In this document: positions 8,601 to 61,306 of the stretch, piece by piece
How the letters are laid out: the number at the start of each line of letters is the position of its first letter
Position numbering within the stretch: the first letter of the stretch is position 1
Origin: Arabidopsis thaliana
Taxonomy: Eukaryota > Streptophyta > Magnoliopsida > Brassicales > Brassicaceae
Direction of reading: 5' to 3'
Assembly: GCF_000001735.4 (NCBI RefSeq)
Contig: NC_003070.9
Span: forward strand, 1,240,001 to 1,304,000
Length of the DNA stretch: 64,000 nt
Notes under the pieces: generated by a model
The model's input: the letters and a program-made list of their open reading frames with translations, nothing else
Database searches by the model: none
Told to the model about the DNA's origin: nothing
Made by a program: the position numbers and the translations under genes

Positions 8601-9679
8601 TGTTTCAGAGAGATGAAAACAGAGGAGAAGAAAGGAGGAAGCTTTACTCTTGAAGAAACGAATTCTAGTCACAAGCTTTGTATGTATCGACGAGTTTATA
8701 TAATTTTGGGGCAAACCCTAAGCATCGTTGAATTGAGGAAGGAGACGAAATAGGATTAAGTCATTTCTCAATATCAACAAGAAAAAAGAAAAATGAGATT
8801 TTGACGAAGGAAGAGGGATCTAGAAGCGTGTAGCAAAGAGTAAATTAGAGGCAGACAAAACTCATAAAAGGTATTTAAGTACAAAGGTTGTCTGTCTTCC
8901 ACTAATAATCAAGCTTCTAATGAGTTTTTAAGTAATTAATCAACGGTTACAAAAGCTTTTAGATATTTATTAATATATTTATTTTTTAAGGGGTCCATAT
9001 GAAAAATCCACTGTCCTAGGAAAATTGGAAAATGATGAGTCATCTGATTTTGATTATGACTTGTCACTAAAGTTTGTTATAAATTCTCTATCAAAAAAAG
9101 AATTAGTAAATTATTTTTCTAAATATATTTCAGGTCGACCCATAAATTGTTGATTCACGTGTATGCAATTTTGTTTTTTTCTGGACTTTCTTGTTTCCAT
9201 AGAATCAACGGTTCGTCGGTAACGAGTAACGACCACACTTTCAGAGACGGACAGGAATCTTACGTGAATTATGTGGCTTACGATTTATTAGCTTTTGGTA
9301 ATTTTATATGTAATTGATTTATAAATAAGTATCTACCATAGTTCAAAACTTCAAATAATATCTGAGCCGACTTCTTTGCGCAAAACTTCACTTTCGAGAG
9401 ATTTTTTATTATTGGGATTGGTCTGTATTTAACTTTCATGAAAATATGGTAGCTAGTTTTTTTGGGAATGGTTTTTGGGGAATGGTAATTAATTATGTTT
9501 ATAATTTACTCTTCTTTTTTCGGTTTTCGGTTTTTGTTTGATTTTTGATTTGATTCTATTCCATTTGTTTGTTTCTGCTAATTTTATCCACCCTGAAATA
9601 GAAAAACTTTTTAAAAAATCAAAATAAGAAAAGAAAAAAAGAAACAGTTAAAAACTTTTTAAAAAAAAAATACTAAATA
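8601..9679. other. Intergenic, AT-rich
   Basis: Promoter side of the transporter gene followed by AT-rich DNA leading into the repeat array. No coding frame of note and no recognised RNA gene. From about 9590 the sequence becomes A-rich and similar in style to the spacers of the array, so the array boundary is fuzzy. Confidence 0.45.
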
Positions 9680-10925
9680 CACATGAAGATTTGTGAAAAA
9701 CATGTTGGATTTATAAAATCCTTAATGACCACGGTTAAATGGCAGGATCCAAAATTCGGTTAGAATTCATAACGTCATATTAATTTAATATTTATAAAAC
9801 TTTTAAAAAACGAAAAAAGAGTTGAAAATCTTTTAAGAAAAAAAAATTAAAAAAATAAATGTTAAATATACATGAAGATGTGAAAAAGATGTTGGATTTG
9901 TGGAATTGCTAATGACCACAGTTAAATGGCGGGATCCAAAATCCGGTTAGATTTCACAACGTCATATTAATTTAGTATTTATAAAACCTTTAAAAAAATA
10001 AATAAGGAGTTGAAAACCTTTAAAGAAAAAAAAACACAAATGCTAAATACATGTGAAAAATATGTTGGATTTGTGCAATCGCTAATGACCACGGTTAAAT
10101 GGCGGGATCCAAAATCCGGTTAGATTTCACAACGTCATATTAATTTAATATTTATAAAACCTTTACAAAAATAAAAAAATAAAAGAGGAGTTGAAAACCT
10201 TTAAAGAAAAAAAATAAAAACATAAATGCTAAATACACATGAAGATGTGAAAACATGTTGGATTTGTGGAATCGCTAATGACCACGGTTAAATGGCAGGA
10301 TCCAAAATCCGGTTAGATTTTACAACGTCATATTAATTTAGTATTTATAAATCCTTTAAAAAATAAAAATAAAATAAAAAAGGAGTTGAAAACCTTTAAA
10401 GAAAATAAAATAAAAACATAAATGCTAAATACACATGAAGATGTGAAAAACATGTTGGATTTGTGGAATCGCTAATGACCACGGTTAAATGGCGAGATCC
10501 AAAATCCGGTTAGATTTCACAACGTCATATTAATTTAGTATTTATAAAACCTTTAAAAAAATAAAAAAAAGAGTTGAAAACCTTTAAAGAAAAAAAATAT
10601 ACAAATGCTAAATACATATGAAGATGTGAAAAACATGTTGGATTTGTGGAATCGCTAATGACCACGGTTAAATGGCGGGATCCAAAATCCGGTTAGATCT
10701 CACAAAGTCATATTAATTTAGTATTTATAAAATCTTTAAAAAAATAAAAAAAGAGTTGAAAACCTTTAAAGAAAAAAAAATACAAATGCTAAATACATAT
10801 GAAGATGTGAAAAACATGTTGGATTTGTGGAATCGCTAATGACCACGGTTAAATGGCGGGATCCAAAATCCGGTTAGATTTCACAACGTTATATTAATTT
10901 AGTATTTATAAAACCTTTAAAATAA
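9680..10925 (+). repeat. Seven-copy tandem array of a ~185-bp unit (left array)
   Basis: The core AATGACCACGGTTAAATGG occurs with its GACC at 9727, 9914, 10087, 10280, 10477, 10660 and 10841, so intervals are 187, 173, 193, 197, 183 and 181 bases. Each unit has a well kept ~110-base core (ATGTTGGATTTGTGGAATC through GGATCCAAAATCCGGTTAG to TTTAGTATTTATAAAACC) and a variable poly-A-rich spacer that accounts for the length change. The first copy at the left is the most diverged. Most units hold a BamHI site (GGATCC). The same unit occurs in inverse orientation at 49015-49545. The core is not coding. Confidence 0.92.
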
Positions 10926-11154
10926 TAATAAATATATTAAAAAAGAGCTTTTGAAAAAATCCAATCATCAAATAAAAAAAAACATTTTACAACTAAATCA
11001 ATTATTATTTTTTGTAAGAAAGAATAAGAAACAGAGTATAGAAAGTCGTTACCAAGCTATAGCAAAATATGTTGTCTATCACGAATCCAAACAAACAGTT
11101 TTGCGGATGCACCCACTGATTTGGCGAATCAAGAATACGAACCTACAATAACAA

Positions 11155-11725
11155 GAAGAAAACTAAAGGTCAATTTGTCCTAAATGAAACAAAGTGATAA
11201 CAGACAAGAAAACCGCAAATTAGGTCAATTTCGTAAAACTGACTACAAGAGCAAACCCTAGTTCCTCTTATGAAATTGCGTTTAGAAAACTAATTATTGA
11301 TTGACCTACAACCTAAAGAGACTTTCTTTATGCAGCAGCAAGTTGCGCTAAAATTATAAATCTAAGGTTCCAAGAGATCAAAATAGGACTTAGGCTAGAA
11401 GCAACAAACCTGAATCTCGTCATAACGACGCATATGCTGCATCATCCATGGTTTGCGTCACCACCTCCGACTGTCGGTCCATGATTTGGTAAAGATCGTG
11501 AAACGCAAAAACAGAGACGGAAAATAAGAACGGTGGTGAAATCTTTAATCGTGTGATCAAACGGATCCGATGACATTGGCGCGGATGATCATCGACCTTT
11601 TGACGTTCTCGTGATCGGTGAGTTCTCTTTGTAAGAGAGGAATAGAACTTGATCAAGAAGAAACAGAGACTAAAAAGAAAAAAGAAGAAGAAGAAGAAGG
11701 TGGATTTTTGTTTTCGAAAAAAGAG
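11155..11725 (-). mobile_element. Left arm of composite repeat: gene-5'-end-like, non-coding
   Basis: On the minus strand, from 11725, a pyrimidine-rich leader-like tract leads to a short segment ending GAGATTCAG followed by GTTTGTTGC, which looks like an exon end and 5' splice site, then intron-like T-rich sequence. The same order is found on the plus strand at 47694-48155 and 48801-48840. Similarity is strong in blocks such as CACCGATCACGAGAACGTC and GATCTCTTGGAACCTT. Reading frames are not kept between copies, so I do not call a gene. This arm adjoins the seven-copy array. It could be a captured gene 5' end carried by a DNA transposon. Confidence 0.55.
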
Positions 11726-12211
11726 GACTTTTGATATATAGAGAGAAAGGTTGCCAACGGAAAAAAAAAATGTTAGGTTAAATTGTTCCAAGAGAAGGAA
11801 ATTACTCATACCAATATAAAAAAAGGAAATTGTTTATATCAATAATAAAAAGTGACCGTTACAAGAATCATATATTTATTTTTTACTGCCCTTGATCTGA
11901 ATTGAGGTGACTTGCGTTTGTTGTAGTTAATTAGAGATTCAAAAAATTGATTACTGCAGAATGTAGGTTCAAAAAATTGATTACTGCGGAATGTAGATGA
12001 TTAAAAAAAAGGTAAGATTAAAACGCAAACTTTAACGTTGCTTCGATTCCGGTTAAGACTATTCGCACTTTCGATTCCTTGATTTAGGGGTTTTCTTTGT
12101 TTGTGGTACAAGCCTTTTGATGCATATAGTACATAAATTTGCATAATATATTTATATCATAAGAAAAATATTATTTTGATTTTTCCATCATCTCTGAGTG
12201 ACTCTGTTATT
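11726..12211. other. Intergenic with a 30-bp tandem duplication
   Basis: The 3' flank of AAO4. At about 11938-11997 a 30-base unit beginning TTCAAAAAATTGATTACTGC is present twice in tandem with two or three differences. Nothing else is recognisable. Confidence 0.5.
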
Positions 12212-15200
12212 TTAAGGATATGTTTTCCATTCTAAGTACTTCTCTATGCTTTCAAGGCCACAAAGCTGCTTCACCACCGGCATAGTCGCTGGAACCGGTA
12301 ACTCAAAACCAAGATCACATCTTTCTCTATGATCATCATCAATGCAATTCCATGATAGGTACTGTTTTCGAGCTTCTCTAATGGCTGATCTTGTTGCACA
12401 GTGCACTGAAGCCGCCACAAGCAACGGAGGCTCACCTGAAGCTGTATCAGAAGACCATTTCAGCTCAACAAAAAGTAAGATTAAACAAGATAAAAAAAAG
12501 AGAGAGAGAGAGCGATGAATCTCATTGATTCTTAGCTAAACCTTTAGAGGAGAGAACGCGGTTCTTGTGATGACCACTGTTGAGAATCTGAACGTTGAAT
12601 TGTTTGGGAATTGTGTCTATTGTAGGTATTTTGTAGTCCCATGTACCTTCTTCATTCACAAGCCCGTTTTCATTTGTCGTGTACTCCTCATACATGAAAA
12701 ATCCGATTCCTTGAACAAACGCTCCTTCAATCTTCTCAAAGAAAACAAACATAAACGCCAATTAACCAACCTGTTATAGAACATCAAGTGCACATCCAGA
12801 ATCCGGACCAAAATCAAGCGAATTACCTGTCCTAAATCAACAGCAGGATTAAGGCTTTTTCCACAGTCATAGATAATATCTGATCTTATAATTTCTGTTC
12901 TTCCTGTCACAAGGTCAACCTCCACCTGCATATTTTTACATATATATATATATTCAAGTTTTACTGATTTTATCTCAGGGAATGGTTTAAAATATTGGCT
13001 ATGAGATTCACCTCACTCGCTCCAACTCCATAGTTGAGATATTCTGCAGAAGAGGACTCTGGCTTATAAAAGGTTCGAGCTGATAGGTCCACAGATTGAG
13101 CATTCGCCTGCAGTTTCACATATGGAGATATTTCCTTGAAATCTGGATCAATATAAGGAGAATTATCCAGTTTAGTTATACCTGTTGAATGAGCATGTCC
13201 CATGTCACGGATCGAGCATTCTCCAGAATCTGATTCATGGTAGGTCTCAGCCTCTCCACCAAGATACCGCAGCAAAGCCTCACTGCTTCACAACAGTTCT
13301 CTGATGTTGTGCTACCCGCAGTGTAACTGCTTTGAGACATACTGAGCGTGTCAGTCTGAAGAAGCCGTATTCTTTCAAGCAGATCATCACTTCCCTCGCA
13401 TTTTATCATACCAAGACCATAAGCAACCATCTGTTGTACCTTTGTCCATAACCCTTGTCCCACCTCAATCCCTGCAACCTCAACCGCAACTGAACCATCA
13501 TTCAAAATGCTTACTTTTCCTGGAGTTGGCCTATGTATAACTAGATGGATGATTGGTACTCGAGAAATCCCCCTTTTGCGCCATATGTTACATCGGTTAA
13601 ACTCTTTCACAGATTCAGCCCTTCGCCTGAAATCTGCAGATACCTCCAATTTGTCCCACAATAAAGGCAAAGTATATTCATCAGGCTCACCAGCAGCTTG
13701 CTTATAAAACTTGCGGAGGCTTTCGTACGTATGAAGATTTATCCTTCTCACAACATCCACGTCCATCTTCAGGGAAGATGCTACGTTCTCAATAATGGAT
13801 TCAGCAATGTATGAACCTTGTACTTCACCGGGTGCCCTCAAAGACGTTCTGCTCGGAAGGTTTGTCTTACACACTTTGATGTCAAATGACAATGCACCCC
13901 AGTCATATTTCCTCAGGGAGTTCATTATATTCTGTGGCATCACTAGACTTACATCCACATCTGACCCTGCATCTATAAACAAATTTAGGTCTAGTGCTGT
14001 GAGTTTACCGTCAGATCTGAATCCTACACTGTAAGTTATTTTCAGGGGATGCCTTCCTCCAGCCATTATCATATCAGTCTTACGGTTGACGTATATCCTT
14101 ACAGGACGCTGCATTTTTTTTGCAGCAAGCGCACATGCTGTCGCAACCTGAAATCATCTTCAGCAGCATTAGTATCAAATCACAAAGGACTTTTATTCAG
14201 AGAAGAAACTATTACTTACAGGCATAGACTTTATAGCTTTTCCACCAAAGCCACCTCCAACTCTTCTGGTGATGACTCGAACGTTATGCTCCGGGATTCC
14301 AAGACATGTAGCAATTACTGTTTGTGTGAACTCGGGTGCTTGAGTTGAACTGTAAACCACTAAACAGTTGTCTTCATCTGGCAAGGCAAGTGCTGTTTGT
14401 GTCTCCATATAGAAGAAGTACTGTGACCCAAGTCTCAACTGCATAACCAAAATCAACAGCAAACATAGTGTAAGAATGTATTTTTTTTTATTTTTTTTTA
14501 ATATATCAAAGATTAAGAGAGAGAAAGAGAATTTTAATACCTCTACTGAGCGTATCTTGCGATCAGCTTCAGCCATTCCTTTTGAAATATCGCCAACAGG
14601 TTCGGGCTGATACTCGGGAGGAACCTCAAAAAGGCTGGACCTTTTGACTGCATCCTCCACAGATAATACTGGTGTTCCTATATTCCTTGAATCGTACTCA
14701 ACTACTGCAAGGTGTGCTGCCATATCTGCATGCTTTTGTGTGTCTGCAACCTGATAGGTCATAAAAAATGGACTAAGAGTTAGAAGAAAGACGAGAAAGT
14801 TGATAGAGATGCAGGAATTATTTCGGTGGTGGATGGATTGGGAATGTATTAGAAATTGGACTTACCACAAGAGCAATTATTTGTCCGGCAGATATAGTAA
14901 CTTCATCTGCAAATAGAAGCCCTGTGCCAAACATCGTTATGTAACCAATGTTTTGCCCCACTTCAGGTATATCTTTGAAAGTAATAACTGCCAAAACTCC
15001 AATTGGTGTCACATTTCCTGAGAAACCAACGCTCTTTATCCAAGCCAATGGCTTTGTGCTATAAATGAATGCTCCATGTAGACAATGGGGTAAGGATGGA
15101 ATATCATCAACGTAAACAGCTTCACCTGGAAAGATAAACGCTCCTGTAAGGTCTGATATTACTTAGCTAAATAAGCATATGACTAAAGAACTAAAAGCAT

Positions 15201-22122: not shown

Positions 22123-32376
<10,254 letters not shown>

Positions 32377-47693: not shown

Positions 47694-48155
47694 AAGAAAA
47701 CAAAAAATCCACCTTCTTCTTCTTCTTTTGTCTTTTTAGCCTCTGTTTGTTTCTGTTCCTCTCTTACAAAAAGAACTCACCGATCACGAGAACGTCAAAG
47801 CTCGATGATCACCATCCATTTTCACCACCGTCAGAACCGTCGGAACTGTAACTCGGTGATCACACCATCAATGATCTCGCCACCGTTTGTCTCTCTGTTT
47901 TCTTGCGTTTCACGATCTCTCTAGCAAATCATGGCGGATCTCACCGAGAGTCCCAAGTATTGACGCAAACCACGCGCCGTTGTCACGAGACTCAGGTATG
48001 TTGCTTCTCGCTTAAATTCCTATTTGATCTCTTGGAACCTTGGATTTTTAATATTTAGTTTCTGCACAAAAAAGGTCTCTTTGAATTAGGTCAATCAATA
48101 TTTAGTTTTCTAACCGCAATTTCATCGGAGGAACTAGGGTTTGATCTTGTAGTTT
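47694..48155 (+). mobile_element. Right arm of composite repeat, first part
   Basis: Plus-strand homologue of the left arm at 11725-11250, in the opposite orientation. It has the same order: AACAAAAAATCCACCTTCTTC, pyrimidine-rich leader, CACCGATCACGAGAACGTC, a segment ending GAGACTCAG before GTATGTTGC (splice-donor-like), then intron-like sequence with GATCTCTTGGAACCTTGG and AGGTCAATCAATATTTAG. A short frame starting ATGGCGGATCTC near 47931 stops within about ten codons. The block continues at 48801-48840 after the LINE insertion. No conserved reading frame between the two arms. Confidence 0.6.
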
Positions 48156-48800
48156 TTTTTTTTTTCCTCAAACATCAGCTTTATTAATAATTTGCTGTAG
48201 CAAAGTCGCGATGTAAAAAATCAGTTATTACAAACGGGATATAGTTATAGCAATAAAACTGAGTGTTCAAAGGAAGTTGTTGTTTTGCCAGAGCATCTGC
48301 AGCCATGTTTGAAAATCGCCTTGTCCAAGTAAACTTGCATTCTTCAAATTTTGATCTCCAAGCGCTTATATCTCTTATCCAATTAAAAACTGCAAAATTT
48401 GAAGACCGACCATTGACAATCTCTGAGACTTCTTTATTGTCACCTTCAAAGTAAATTTTCCTATAGCCCCTACTCCAACAATGTTGCATGGCCATGACTA
48501 AAGCTTGGAGTTCACTTTCCATCGGATTGGTAGTAATAGAGCCTATAGCATGAGCTGCACCTAGAAAGGTTCCTCGATCATCCCGTAAGAGCCAACCCGC
48601 TTTACTCGGAGCGTTGCTGTGGTAAGTGCCGTCATAGTTGCATTTCGTCCAACCAATAGGGGGTGTTGTCCAGAGATTAGCTGTTGGTTCTTGTGACGTT
48701 ACTCTGTCAGGTTTTGATGATAAACGGTGGGTGTACTCTTCTGCATCTTGCCATTCTTTGGCGTCTTGTCTTGCATATCGGAGAGAAGCTTCCCATGGAA
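48156..48800 (-). mobile_element. 5'-truncated LINE insertion with target-site duplication
   Basis: The 14-base direct repeat TGATCTTGTAGTTT at 48142-48155 and 48801-48814 encloses this segment, with a T run (to about 48165) directly after the first copy. On the minus strand it therefore reads duplication, partial coding sequence, short 3' end, poly(A), duplication. The paralogous left arm near 11245-11270 lacks the segment, showing the site before insertion. The content is the RNase H end of a LINE ORF2-like protein, described separately. Removal of the element restores continuity between the arm sequences on either side. Confidence 0.85.
48184..48796 (-). pseudogene. RNase H domain relic of a LINE-type reverse transcriptase
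   Basis: From 48796 the minus strand is open for about 200 codons to the stop at 48184, with no start codon at the 5' end because the element is truncated. The product is an RVT_3-type RNase H: KCNYDGTYHSNAPSKAGWLLRD, then MESELQALVMAMQ, FEGDNKEV and NMAADALAKQ, so the Asp-Glu-Asp-Asp catalytic set is complete. An internal ATG at 48522 (MESELQAL) could start a shorter protein, but this would lose the first catalytic Asp. I believe this is the locus annotated as AT1G04625 (RNase H-like). Best seen as a piece of a retrotransposon rather than a host gene. Confidence 0.75.
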
Positions 48801-49014
48801 TGATCTTGTAGTTTAGTTTTACAAAATTGACCTAAAATTGGTGGATAATGTTACGACAGAGCTACACTAGGACTTTGGAATGGGCTTTGCTGTATGAGGC
48901 CTTCGTTACACTAGGACTTTCTTCATTCTAACTTTTTTTCTTCTTTTCTTTAAAAATTATTTTAACCAAAACTAAAACTTTCACTAAAACATTTAAATAA
49001 ATAATTTTTTAAAG
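48801..49014 (+). repeat. Right arm, second part, and spacer to the array
   Basis: After the second target-site copy, AGTTTTACAAAATTGACCTAAA continues the left-arm homology (AGTTTTACGAAATTGACCTAA on the minus strand near 11230-11250). From about 48845 to 49010 the two copies no longer align by eye; this spacer contains ACACTAGGACTTT twice (near 48866 and 48908). Confidence 0.5.
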
Positions 49015-49545
49015 GTTTTTTATAAATACTAAATTAATATGACGTTGTGAAATCTAACCGGATTTTTGATCCCGCCATTTAACCGTGGTCATTAGCGATT
49101 CCATAAATCCAACATATTTTTCACATCTTCATGTATATTTAGCATTTATTTTTTGTTTTCTTTTCTTAAAAGTTTTTCAAATTTTTTTTGATTTTTTTAA
49201 AAGTTTTAATAAATACTAAATTAATATAACGTTGTGAAATCTAACCAGATTTTGGATCCCGCCATTTAACCGTGGTCATTAGCGATTCCACAAATCCAAC
49301 ATGTTTTTCACATCTTCATGTATATTTAGCATTTAATTATTTTTATTTTATTTTTTTAAAAATGTTTTCAACTCTCTTTTTTTTTCCTTTTTCTTTTTTT
49401 TAAAAGATTTTATAAATACTAAATTAATATGACGTTGTGAAATCTAACCGGATTTTGGATCCCGCCATTTAACCATGGTCATTAACGATTTCACAAATCT
49501 AACATATTTTTCTCATTTTCATGTACTATATTTAGCATTTAATTT
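49015..49545 (-). repeat. Three-copy array of the ~185-bp unit (right array, inverted)
   Basis: The same repeat unit as at 9680-10925 but read on the minus strand: AACCGTGGTC (the last copy AACCATGGTC) occurs at 49081, 49268 and 49471, intervals 187 and 203. The conserved core and the A/T-rich variable spacer are as in the left array. Order relative to the arm is the same as on the left, so the whole unit is inverted rather than only the array. Confidence 0.9.
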
Positions 49546-49920
49546 TATTTATTTTCTGAAAAGGTTTTACTCTTTTTTTCATTTTCAAGAACTCTTGTTT
49601 TCAAAATTTTATTGTTTTGGATATTAAATTCACATATAATTATATATGATTTGGTTCGATTTCACTCGGTAAGCTTTTTCGAATATTTTTCACCTGGAGC
49701 TGTCAAATAAGCCAATTTCTTGCAGCTTGCTGATGAATCATGAAACTGTTTTTGCCTCATATTACGATTGAAACACTTAAGAGAAAACCAATACAAGAAG
49801 AATACTGTCTGTTGAATCATTCTCTTATTACCCGAAGAAAAAAAGATATAACAAGAACATATCAATCCTCAGCGAAACATCATTCATCATCATCATATGC
49901 ATTTGAGAGAAACTAGGAAA
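49546..49920. other. Intergenic: repeat edge and 3' flank of the GRIM-19 gene
   Basis: AT-rich outer edge of the right array followed by the 3' flank of the GRIM-19 gene. A minus-strand frame at 49662-49865 is probably untranslated sequence. No other feature is seen. Confidence 0.4.
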
Positions 49921-60667: not shown

Positions 60668-61306
60668 TTAAGGATGTGGATCGATCACACCACCGACCAC
60701 GCCGTGTCCACCACCGATACCACCACCAACACCAATACCACCAGCCTTACCGAGACCACCAACTCCACCTAAACCACCTCCGGCTCCGCCTAGACCACCT
60801 AAACCGCCAATACCACCGGCTTTACCAATACCACCGCCAACACCACCTACACCGCCTAAACCAGCTCCACCTAGACCGCCAACGCCACCTAGACCACCAA
60901 CACCCCCTCCAACACCGCCTAGACCGCCAACACCTCCTCCGACACCGCCTAGACCGCCAACACCGCCTATACTATGAAATCCACCGATTCCAGCTGCACC
61001 GCCTATGCCACCATACTTACCGATCCCGCCAAGACCACCGATGAGTGGCATCCCTAGACCTCCCACGCCGGCAACACCACCAACTCCGGCGAATCCACCG
61101 ACTCCAGCAACTCCTCCGATGCATTTTTTGTCGCCGACGCTCTTTGGTGGTAACTGATCAGCTGCTTTTGCATGCATGGGCATTGTTGTTGTATCGTCAT
61201 GTCCCGTCGTCTTTCCCTCATCAGACTCTCCCGGCACCTGACGAGCACGTGCACAGACGAAGGATATGGCGAGCAAGACACAAACGACTGACAAAGCTCT
61301 CGACAT
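60668..61306 (-). CDS. Secreted glycine-rich protein
   Basis: An intronless gene of 212 aa. The N-terminus MSRALSVVCVLLAISFVCARA is a signal peptide. A short acidic-to-neutral linker (QVPGESDEGKTTGHDDTTT) leads to a single Cys (KKCIGG) and a ~145-residue domain built of GG-V/I/L-G repeats (GGVGGLGGVGG), as in class I glycine-rich proteins of the cell wall. The domain ends in GGVIDPHP. Such proteins are structural parts of walls or extracellular matrix; the specific role is unknown. The plus strand also stays open here because the repeat codons exclude stops, and those frames are shadows. Likely AT1G04660. Confidence 0.88.
   Translation of the reverse strand: MSRALSVVCVLLAISFVCARARQVPGESDEGKTTGHDDTTTMPMHAKAADQLPPKSVGDKKCIGGVAGVGGFAGVGGVAGVGGLGMPLIGGLGGIGKYGGIGGAAGIGGFHSIGGVGGLGGVGGGVGGLGGVGGGVGGLGGVGGLGGAGLGGVGGVGGGIGKAGGIGGLGGLGGAGGGLGGVGGLGKAGGIGVGGGIGGGHGVVGGVIDPHP

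Follow-up and report, generated by a model that had tools for sequence, protein, structure and literature searches.

Introduction

MEA-ISR of Arabidopsis thaliana, which is built of tandem units of about 183 bp, is the described locus with which the repeats reported here are best compared. The name stands for MEDEA-INTERGENIC SUBTELOMERIC REPEATS (PMC3820799) and denotes repeats arranged in tandem near MEDEA or downstream of it (PMC2582956, PMC1297646) that serve as a standard assay locus for RNA-directed DNA methylation (RdDM) (PMC2965745, PMC3820799, PMC2582956, PMC1297646). It has been reported that drm2 and rdr2 lose non-CG methylation at MEA-ISR (PMC2965745), that an NRPD1 transgene restores methylation in nrpd1, and that Pol V dependent transcripts were measured at the locus (PMC3141008). 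The Siren/HyperTE loci (CLSY3/4, REM factors) are likewise sequence-specified Pol IV loci in Arabidopsis, and their motifs are given as tandem TTTTGCTTAT (motif 1) and triple AAGCGGAT (motif 2) (PMC12270911). Allowing one mismatch per repeat, we found neither CLSY3 CLSY4 motif in 277,044 bases comprising the window (defined below) and loci L009-L052, and a reading of the arrays as REM/CLSY3-motif loci was rejected on that ground. The pairing centres of C. elegans are near-end repeated motifs in family variants; the ISR families described below share these traits, but their variants are common to several chromosome ends.

Here we describe two arrays on chromosome 1 and the families to which they belong. 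Our overall best reading, to which we assign a probability of roughly 0.65, is that they represent a chromosome-end satellite whose array and adjoining module spread by end-to-end exchange and which is silenced by RdDM.

Two inverted arrays of the MEA-ISR family

The window, a stretch of 64,000 nt (C1:1240001-1304000), contains two arrays of a family that we call ISR1. The arrays and their flanks are as follows.

9663-10932, plus strand: W1, ISR1 array of seven palindromic units in a single orientation, 173-197 bp from start to start
10939-13083, no strand assigned: segment in common with the region downstream of the MEA-ISR array, running into an aldehyde oxidase gene
11145-11943, minus strand: W1 right module, promoter-like, profile hit of 419 bits, predicted transcription into W1
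47695-48194, plus strand: W2 right module, leader and exon-like part only, 193 bits, predicted transcription towards W2
48819-49005, no strand assigned: W2 flank, common to the right flanks of arrays at C1:423 kb (80%) and C2:19.16 Mb (72%)
49005-49568, minus strand: W2, ISR1 array of three units in the orientation opposite to W1, spacing 187 and 203

An earlier reading made from the sequence only had noted seven direct units with three inverted partners about 38 kb away, and both TRF and a listing of inverted pairs agree with it. TRF placed W1 at 9663-10932 (period 181, 6.8 copies, 88% matches) and W2 at 49005-49568 (period 187, 2.9 copies); unit starts in W1 were spaced 187, 173, 193, 197, 183 and 181 bp. 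Inverted pairs between the arrays were 80-96% complementary over 82-249 nt and lay 38.1-39.6 kb apart (25 of 31 pairs listed; three outside the arrays). W1 and W2 are 1.25 and 1.29 Mb from the chromosome end, respectively, an outer-arm (subtelomeric) position like that of MEA-ISR.

A search of the genome with W1 gave 47 matches, W1 itself counted, in keeping with the expectation that copies exist elsewhere. The second best, after W1 itself, was C1:549668-550891 (locus L034), with 85% identity over query positions 2-1246 of 1246. This array has seven units and seven core matches, spaced at 169-195 bp with a partial first unit set aside (173-203 bp in the window), and starts about 650 bp past the end of a gene. 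The exons of this gene encode a CXC domain and SET-domain sequence in two pieces, one of them below cut-off (Pfam). From these domains and its position we take the gene to be MEDEA, and the array is thus MEA-ISR. Judged by sequence, W1 and W2 are almost certainly members of the MEA-ISR family and paralogues of the MEDEA copy, so that the repeat, left unassigned by the sequence-only reading, falls into a described family. W1 and MEA-ISR share homologous units, a similar period, a count of seven units, a chromosome arm and the right flank (86% over 10939-12282 and 95% over 12725-13083), whereas the W1 locus lies elsewhere, next to an aldehyde oxidase gene and upstream of a gene of the BT1 family. 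MEA-ISR probes may cross-hybridise with paralogues such as W1. RdDM silencing has been reported by others for the MEDEA copy only; the window arrays would be silenced by extension. A tRNA gene lies beyond the MEA-ISR module (L034:5141-5212; Rfam).

W2 is not a simple inverted copy of W1, since its adjacent flank resembles those of other arrays while its module resembles that of W1, matching 11242-11715 at 73% in inverted orientation. A reverse-transcriptase-like remnant (Pfam RVT_3; window 48184-48522, minus strand) lies between this module and W2 and was probably inserted later.

ISR1 and ISR2 units

The ISR1 set consisted of 151 units from 32 arrays, and within each array the units kept share one orientation. 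Besides the MEA-ISR group, the family contains several others, which have diverged from W1 to 64-79% identity. A 25-base core pattern (up to three mismatches) had 52 matches in the genome versus none with a reversed-pattern control, so the W1/W2 repeat is not a product of chance; the 19-base ISR1 core GGATCCAAAATCCGGTTAG (up to two mismatches) had 123 matches versus none in the control. A constant core and a freely varying spacer, as proposed earlier, were confirmed in 43 of 47 MEA-ISR-type units with spacer (four of odd length were dropped): identity was 0.89 in the core and 0.75-0.79 in the spacer, and the gap fraction was 0.02 and 0.11, respectively. Core identity in this group was the same within arrays (0.891, 90 pairs) as between arrays (0.890, 813 pairs), while spacer identity was 0.793 within and 0.754 between arrays. 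For 13 of 43 units the closest match belonged to the same array as the unit itself, whereas 1000 shuffles gave a mean of 4.2 and a maximum of 14. Together with the equal core identities, this indicates that units of one array resemble each other somewhat more but that the core is hardly homogenised. The suggestion of unit exchange, or of selection on the core, fits these figures, for which selection, block copying or inter-array exchange may each account.

Unit intervals across ISR1 had a median of 181 bp and a 5-95% range of 133-226 bp (116 of 119 intervals; three above 300 bp were dropped). The near-nucleosome spacing noted previously therefore holds for W1 but not for the family at large, and strict nucleosome spacing was rejected because this range is too wide. 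A GGCGGGA-type site, which is E2F-like, was not kept across the family: the MEA-ISR group consensus has GGCGGGAT, while other groups have GCTGGAT, GACGGGAT, GACAGGAT or GATGGGAT. Since the site is confined to one group, amplification of an E2F site was rejected as an explanation. Group consensus figures (dyad scores and the E2F-type site) were computed with L012 in group F, and the arm-distance test described below with L012 regrouped. At C4:15.22 Mb, ISR1 units adjoin a 244-bp sequence that is repeated in tandem about eight times, with copies 84-93% alike (L029:1-1950).

A second outer-arm tandem family, ISR2, first noticed as a repeat beside some ISR1 arrays, is also palindromic and has a period of 143-192 bp at the three loci examined. 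It occupies about 31 places. Chromosome 3 carries it at either end, and one place, C1:9.10 Mb, is interior. Loci at which ISR2 was seen are:

L035:1868-2532, L039, L040 and L044-L052: ISR2 tandem repeats

A direct profile match between ISR2 and ISR1 was not significant. We regard the families as related on the basis of the module that they have in common and of units at two loci: those of L044 fit the ISR1 and ISR2 models at identical places, and at L048 an ISR1-like unit adjoins ISR2 units.

Distribution along the chromosomes

ISR1 and ISR2 are nearly restricted to chromosome ends. Together they occur at 61 places (hits merged within 5 kb and listed by hand, some of them single or partial units), of which 59 lie no more than 3.4 Mb, and 53 no more than 2 Mb, from a chromosome end; these zones make up 29% and 17% of the genome, respectively. 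When places were merged at 1 Mb, which allows for local copying, the 3.4 Mb zone, whose limit was picked after the data had been seen, contained 14 of 16 (p = 1.5e-6) and the 2 Mb zone 10 of 16 (p = 5e-5). Weak short matches at C3:2.02, C2:9.82, C2:11.76 and C2:6.60 Mb (37-67 bp each) were left out of the 61 places. The pattern searches gave the same picture, with all 52 matches of the 25-base core and all 100 listed matches (of 123) of the 19-base core in the outer arms, and 48 of 49 matches of an ISR2 pattern there (the other at C1:9.10 Mb; none in the control).

The restriction is not absolute, as one unit was found at C1:7.85 Mb and three at C1:9.10 Mb; older interior copies may be too degraded for detection. 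When weak matches were checked, three further places proved to carry relic units, one of these places being interior; the degenerate copy at C4:2.61 Mb falls inside the 3.4 Mb zone. Short matches at C5:13.21 Mb (about 81% over 72 bp by blastn) and C3:14.24 Mb had no model support. Chromosome 3, the left arm of chromosome 2 and that of chromosome 4 yielded no ISR1 array; relic units at C3:23.03 and C4:2.61 Mb were all that was found there. The unit length is similar to that of the centromere satellite CEN180 (178 bp, the figure given by the sequence-only reading), but no centromeric ISR1 arrays were present among the W1 matches, the 52 core matches and the 100 listed matches of the 19-base core. 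The earlier view that the repeat is not the centromere satellite was supported by location.

A promoter-like module beside the arrays

Similarity among the arrays extends to one flank. Right flanks of up to 2 kb matched the right flank of another array in 28 of 32 ISR1 arrays (E up to 1e-3; ISR2 units contribute to the matches of L009 and L023), whereas left flanks matched on the same strand in six of 32, plus one inverted, mainly through ISR2 copies. The resulting flank groups span chromosomes, joining C1 left with C5 right and C1 right with C4.

A profile built from the right flanks, applied to whole loci on both strands, detected a module beside 17 of 32 ISR1 arrays and six of 12 separate ISR2 arrays, and did not detect it beside the other 15 and six, respectively. 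Among the 15 module-less ISR1 arrays, five (L010, L011, L013, L037 and L038) have a different right flank in common. By eye, the W1 module has a TATATA element near 11740, a CT-rich leader, an exon-like stretch and a splice-donor-like site; in the module alignment, TATAAATA-like elements, CT-rich leaders and splice-donor-like sites all point into the array, and some copies carry AAACCCTAA boxes. A conserved reading frame was not seen in the alignment. The side and orientation of the module were equal in all 23 arrays with a detection, in 22 of them by assignment to the nearest array; the 23rd module, on the plus strand of L046 and present in L021 too, lies closer to an ISR1 array facing the opposite way and was assigned to the co-oriented ISR2 array 1138 bp away. 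As many of the module loci are related by copying, these are not 23 independent cases. The module is best described as a TATA-bearing, promoter-like stretch on a fixed side that points into the array, and this architecture around the arrays is more interesting than the arrays themselves.

In L046:2425-6392, an ISR2 array (plus strand) and an ISR1 array (minus strand) flank two back-to-back modules, each of which faces outward into its own array. A weak module fragment at C4:16.87 Mb (L041:2314-2417) has no array detected beside it.

Palindromic units

The units are imperfect palindromes whose arms have changed together between groups. The unit model hit both strands of most ISR1 units, group consensus units showed 77-84% dyad matches, and the dyad score of the MEA-ISR group was 72, whereas 1000 shuffles averaged 31 and reached 64 at most. 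Across nine groups, some of only two units, the distance between the left and right arms of the same group was 0.213, compared with 0.255 when arms were permuted (117 of 100000), which is about as close as the same arm is across groups (0.215-0.220). ISR2 units also matched their own model on the opposite strand, and two of them folded well.

Selection of the palindrome as RNA would be one cause of such symmetry: the arrays would be hairpin RNA genes, transcribed from the module, with units that fold and are cut by dicers into small RNAs. The direction of the module into the array accords with this, as do the folds, which gave z-scores of -2.3 to -9.2 against shuffles in 12 of 12 cases (10 hand-picked units, two of them on both strands); folding was good on both strands, however, as expected for any palindrome. 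With one unit taken from each of 32 arrays, 83.6% of paired cells paired (81.4 shuffled), 12 pairs had changed on both sides versus 7.8 (one of 500 shuffles as high), and covariation was 0.120 versus 0.081 (0 of 500) and 0.023-0.073 when the structure was slid, although that structure was drawn from the same sequences and relatedness inflates the shuffle test. Mismatches also leaned to the predicted RNA strand (94 A.C versus 47 G.T cells in unit sense), but this lean stems from few columns (about 17 pairs versus 7, by eye). Hairpin RNAs would moreover have no need of RDR2 or NRPD1, yet non-CG methylation of MEA-ISR is reported to be lost in rdr2 (PMC2965745) and to depend on NRPD1 (PMC3141008). 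With the missing reading frame and the absence of Rfam families, tRNA in L034 excepted, from the 14 loci searched, we consider hairpin RNA genes improbable, if the strongest of the alternatives.

Still less probable is that the units are dyads bound by a protein and serve as marks of chromosome ends in homologue pairing, end clustering or replication, so that function keeps both core and symmetry. Outer-arm restriction, the recurrence of the 19-base core against an empty control, the joint evolution of the arms and a core equally alike between and within arrays would all follow from it. ISR1 arrays were nevertheless not found on chromosome 3 or two of the left arms, the E2F-like site is confined to the MEA-ISR group, and hairpin-templated conversion could equally keep the symmetry. 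Indeed, dyad selection and hairpin-templated conversion each explain the co-variation of the arms.

Proposed spread and maintenance of the arrays

The chromosome-end satellite favoured here would have arisen and persisted as follows. ISR1 is a satellite found in the outer arms of A. thaliana chromosomes, and its array and module would have been copied together between chromosome ends through ectopic recombination or segmental duplication. The arrays would be transcribed inward by RNA polymerases and kept methylated and silenced by Pol IV, RDR2 and DRM2, as the MEDEA copy is reported to be. Likeness of the core may be kept by unit exchange among arrays or by selection on the dyad. To this account of spread and silencing we give about an even chance; the co-variation of the arms exceeds what a neutral satellite needs and counts against it.

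A bolder reading, which we hold to be quite unlikely, takes some 60 ancient palindromic outer-arm loci, many with an inward promoter, as elements of chromosome-end identity or pairing, in which the dyad is a selected binding site or RNA hairpin and RdDM regulates the loci instead of only silencing them. MEA-ISR, used as a single RdDM test locus, is one of many end arrays, a good number of them with a directed promoter-like module, that offer natural replicates for the study of Pol IV recruitment, and the array set makes a role of outer-arm repeats in chromosome-end contacts or meiotic pairing directly testable. The sequence-only reading had noticed neither that the units are palindromic nor that they keep almost entirely to chromosome ends, nor had it noted the promoter-like module; palindrome, module and ISR2 are not described in the titles, abstract openings and passages of the literature searched, which does not prove their absence from it.

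A transposon family biased to insertion at chromosome ends, with the array as its internal part, is more doubtful still. Array and module do recur at many sites with unrelated left flanks, and the units resemble foldback elements. Yet no transposase was found in the seven ORFs scanned with Pfam, flank comparisons revealed no common element ends, and the shared right-flank segments differ widely in length (about 0.2-2.1 kb), unlike those of one element; the assignment to transposon termini raised earlier thus gained no support. A local segmental duplication inside the window, to which the inverted match of the two modules might point, can be dismissed as the source of the pair, given the genome-wide copies and a W2 flank that matches arrays elsewhere and not W1.

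Short tandem repeats with periods in multiples of three, possibly coding, were also observed elsewhere in the window, at 30865-31065 (period 27 bp) and 60687-61122 (periods 9-36 bp).
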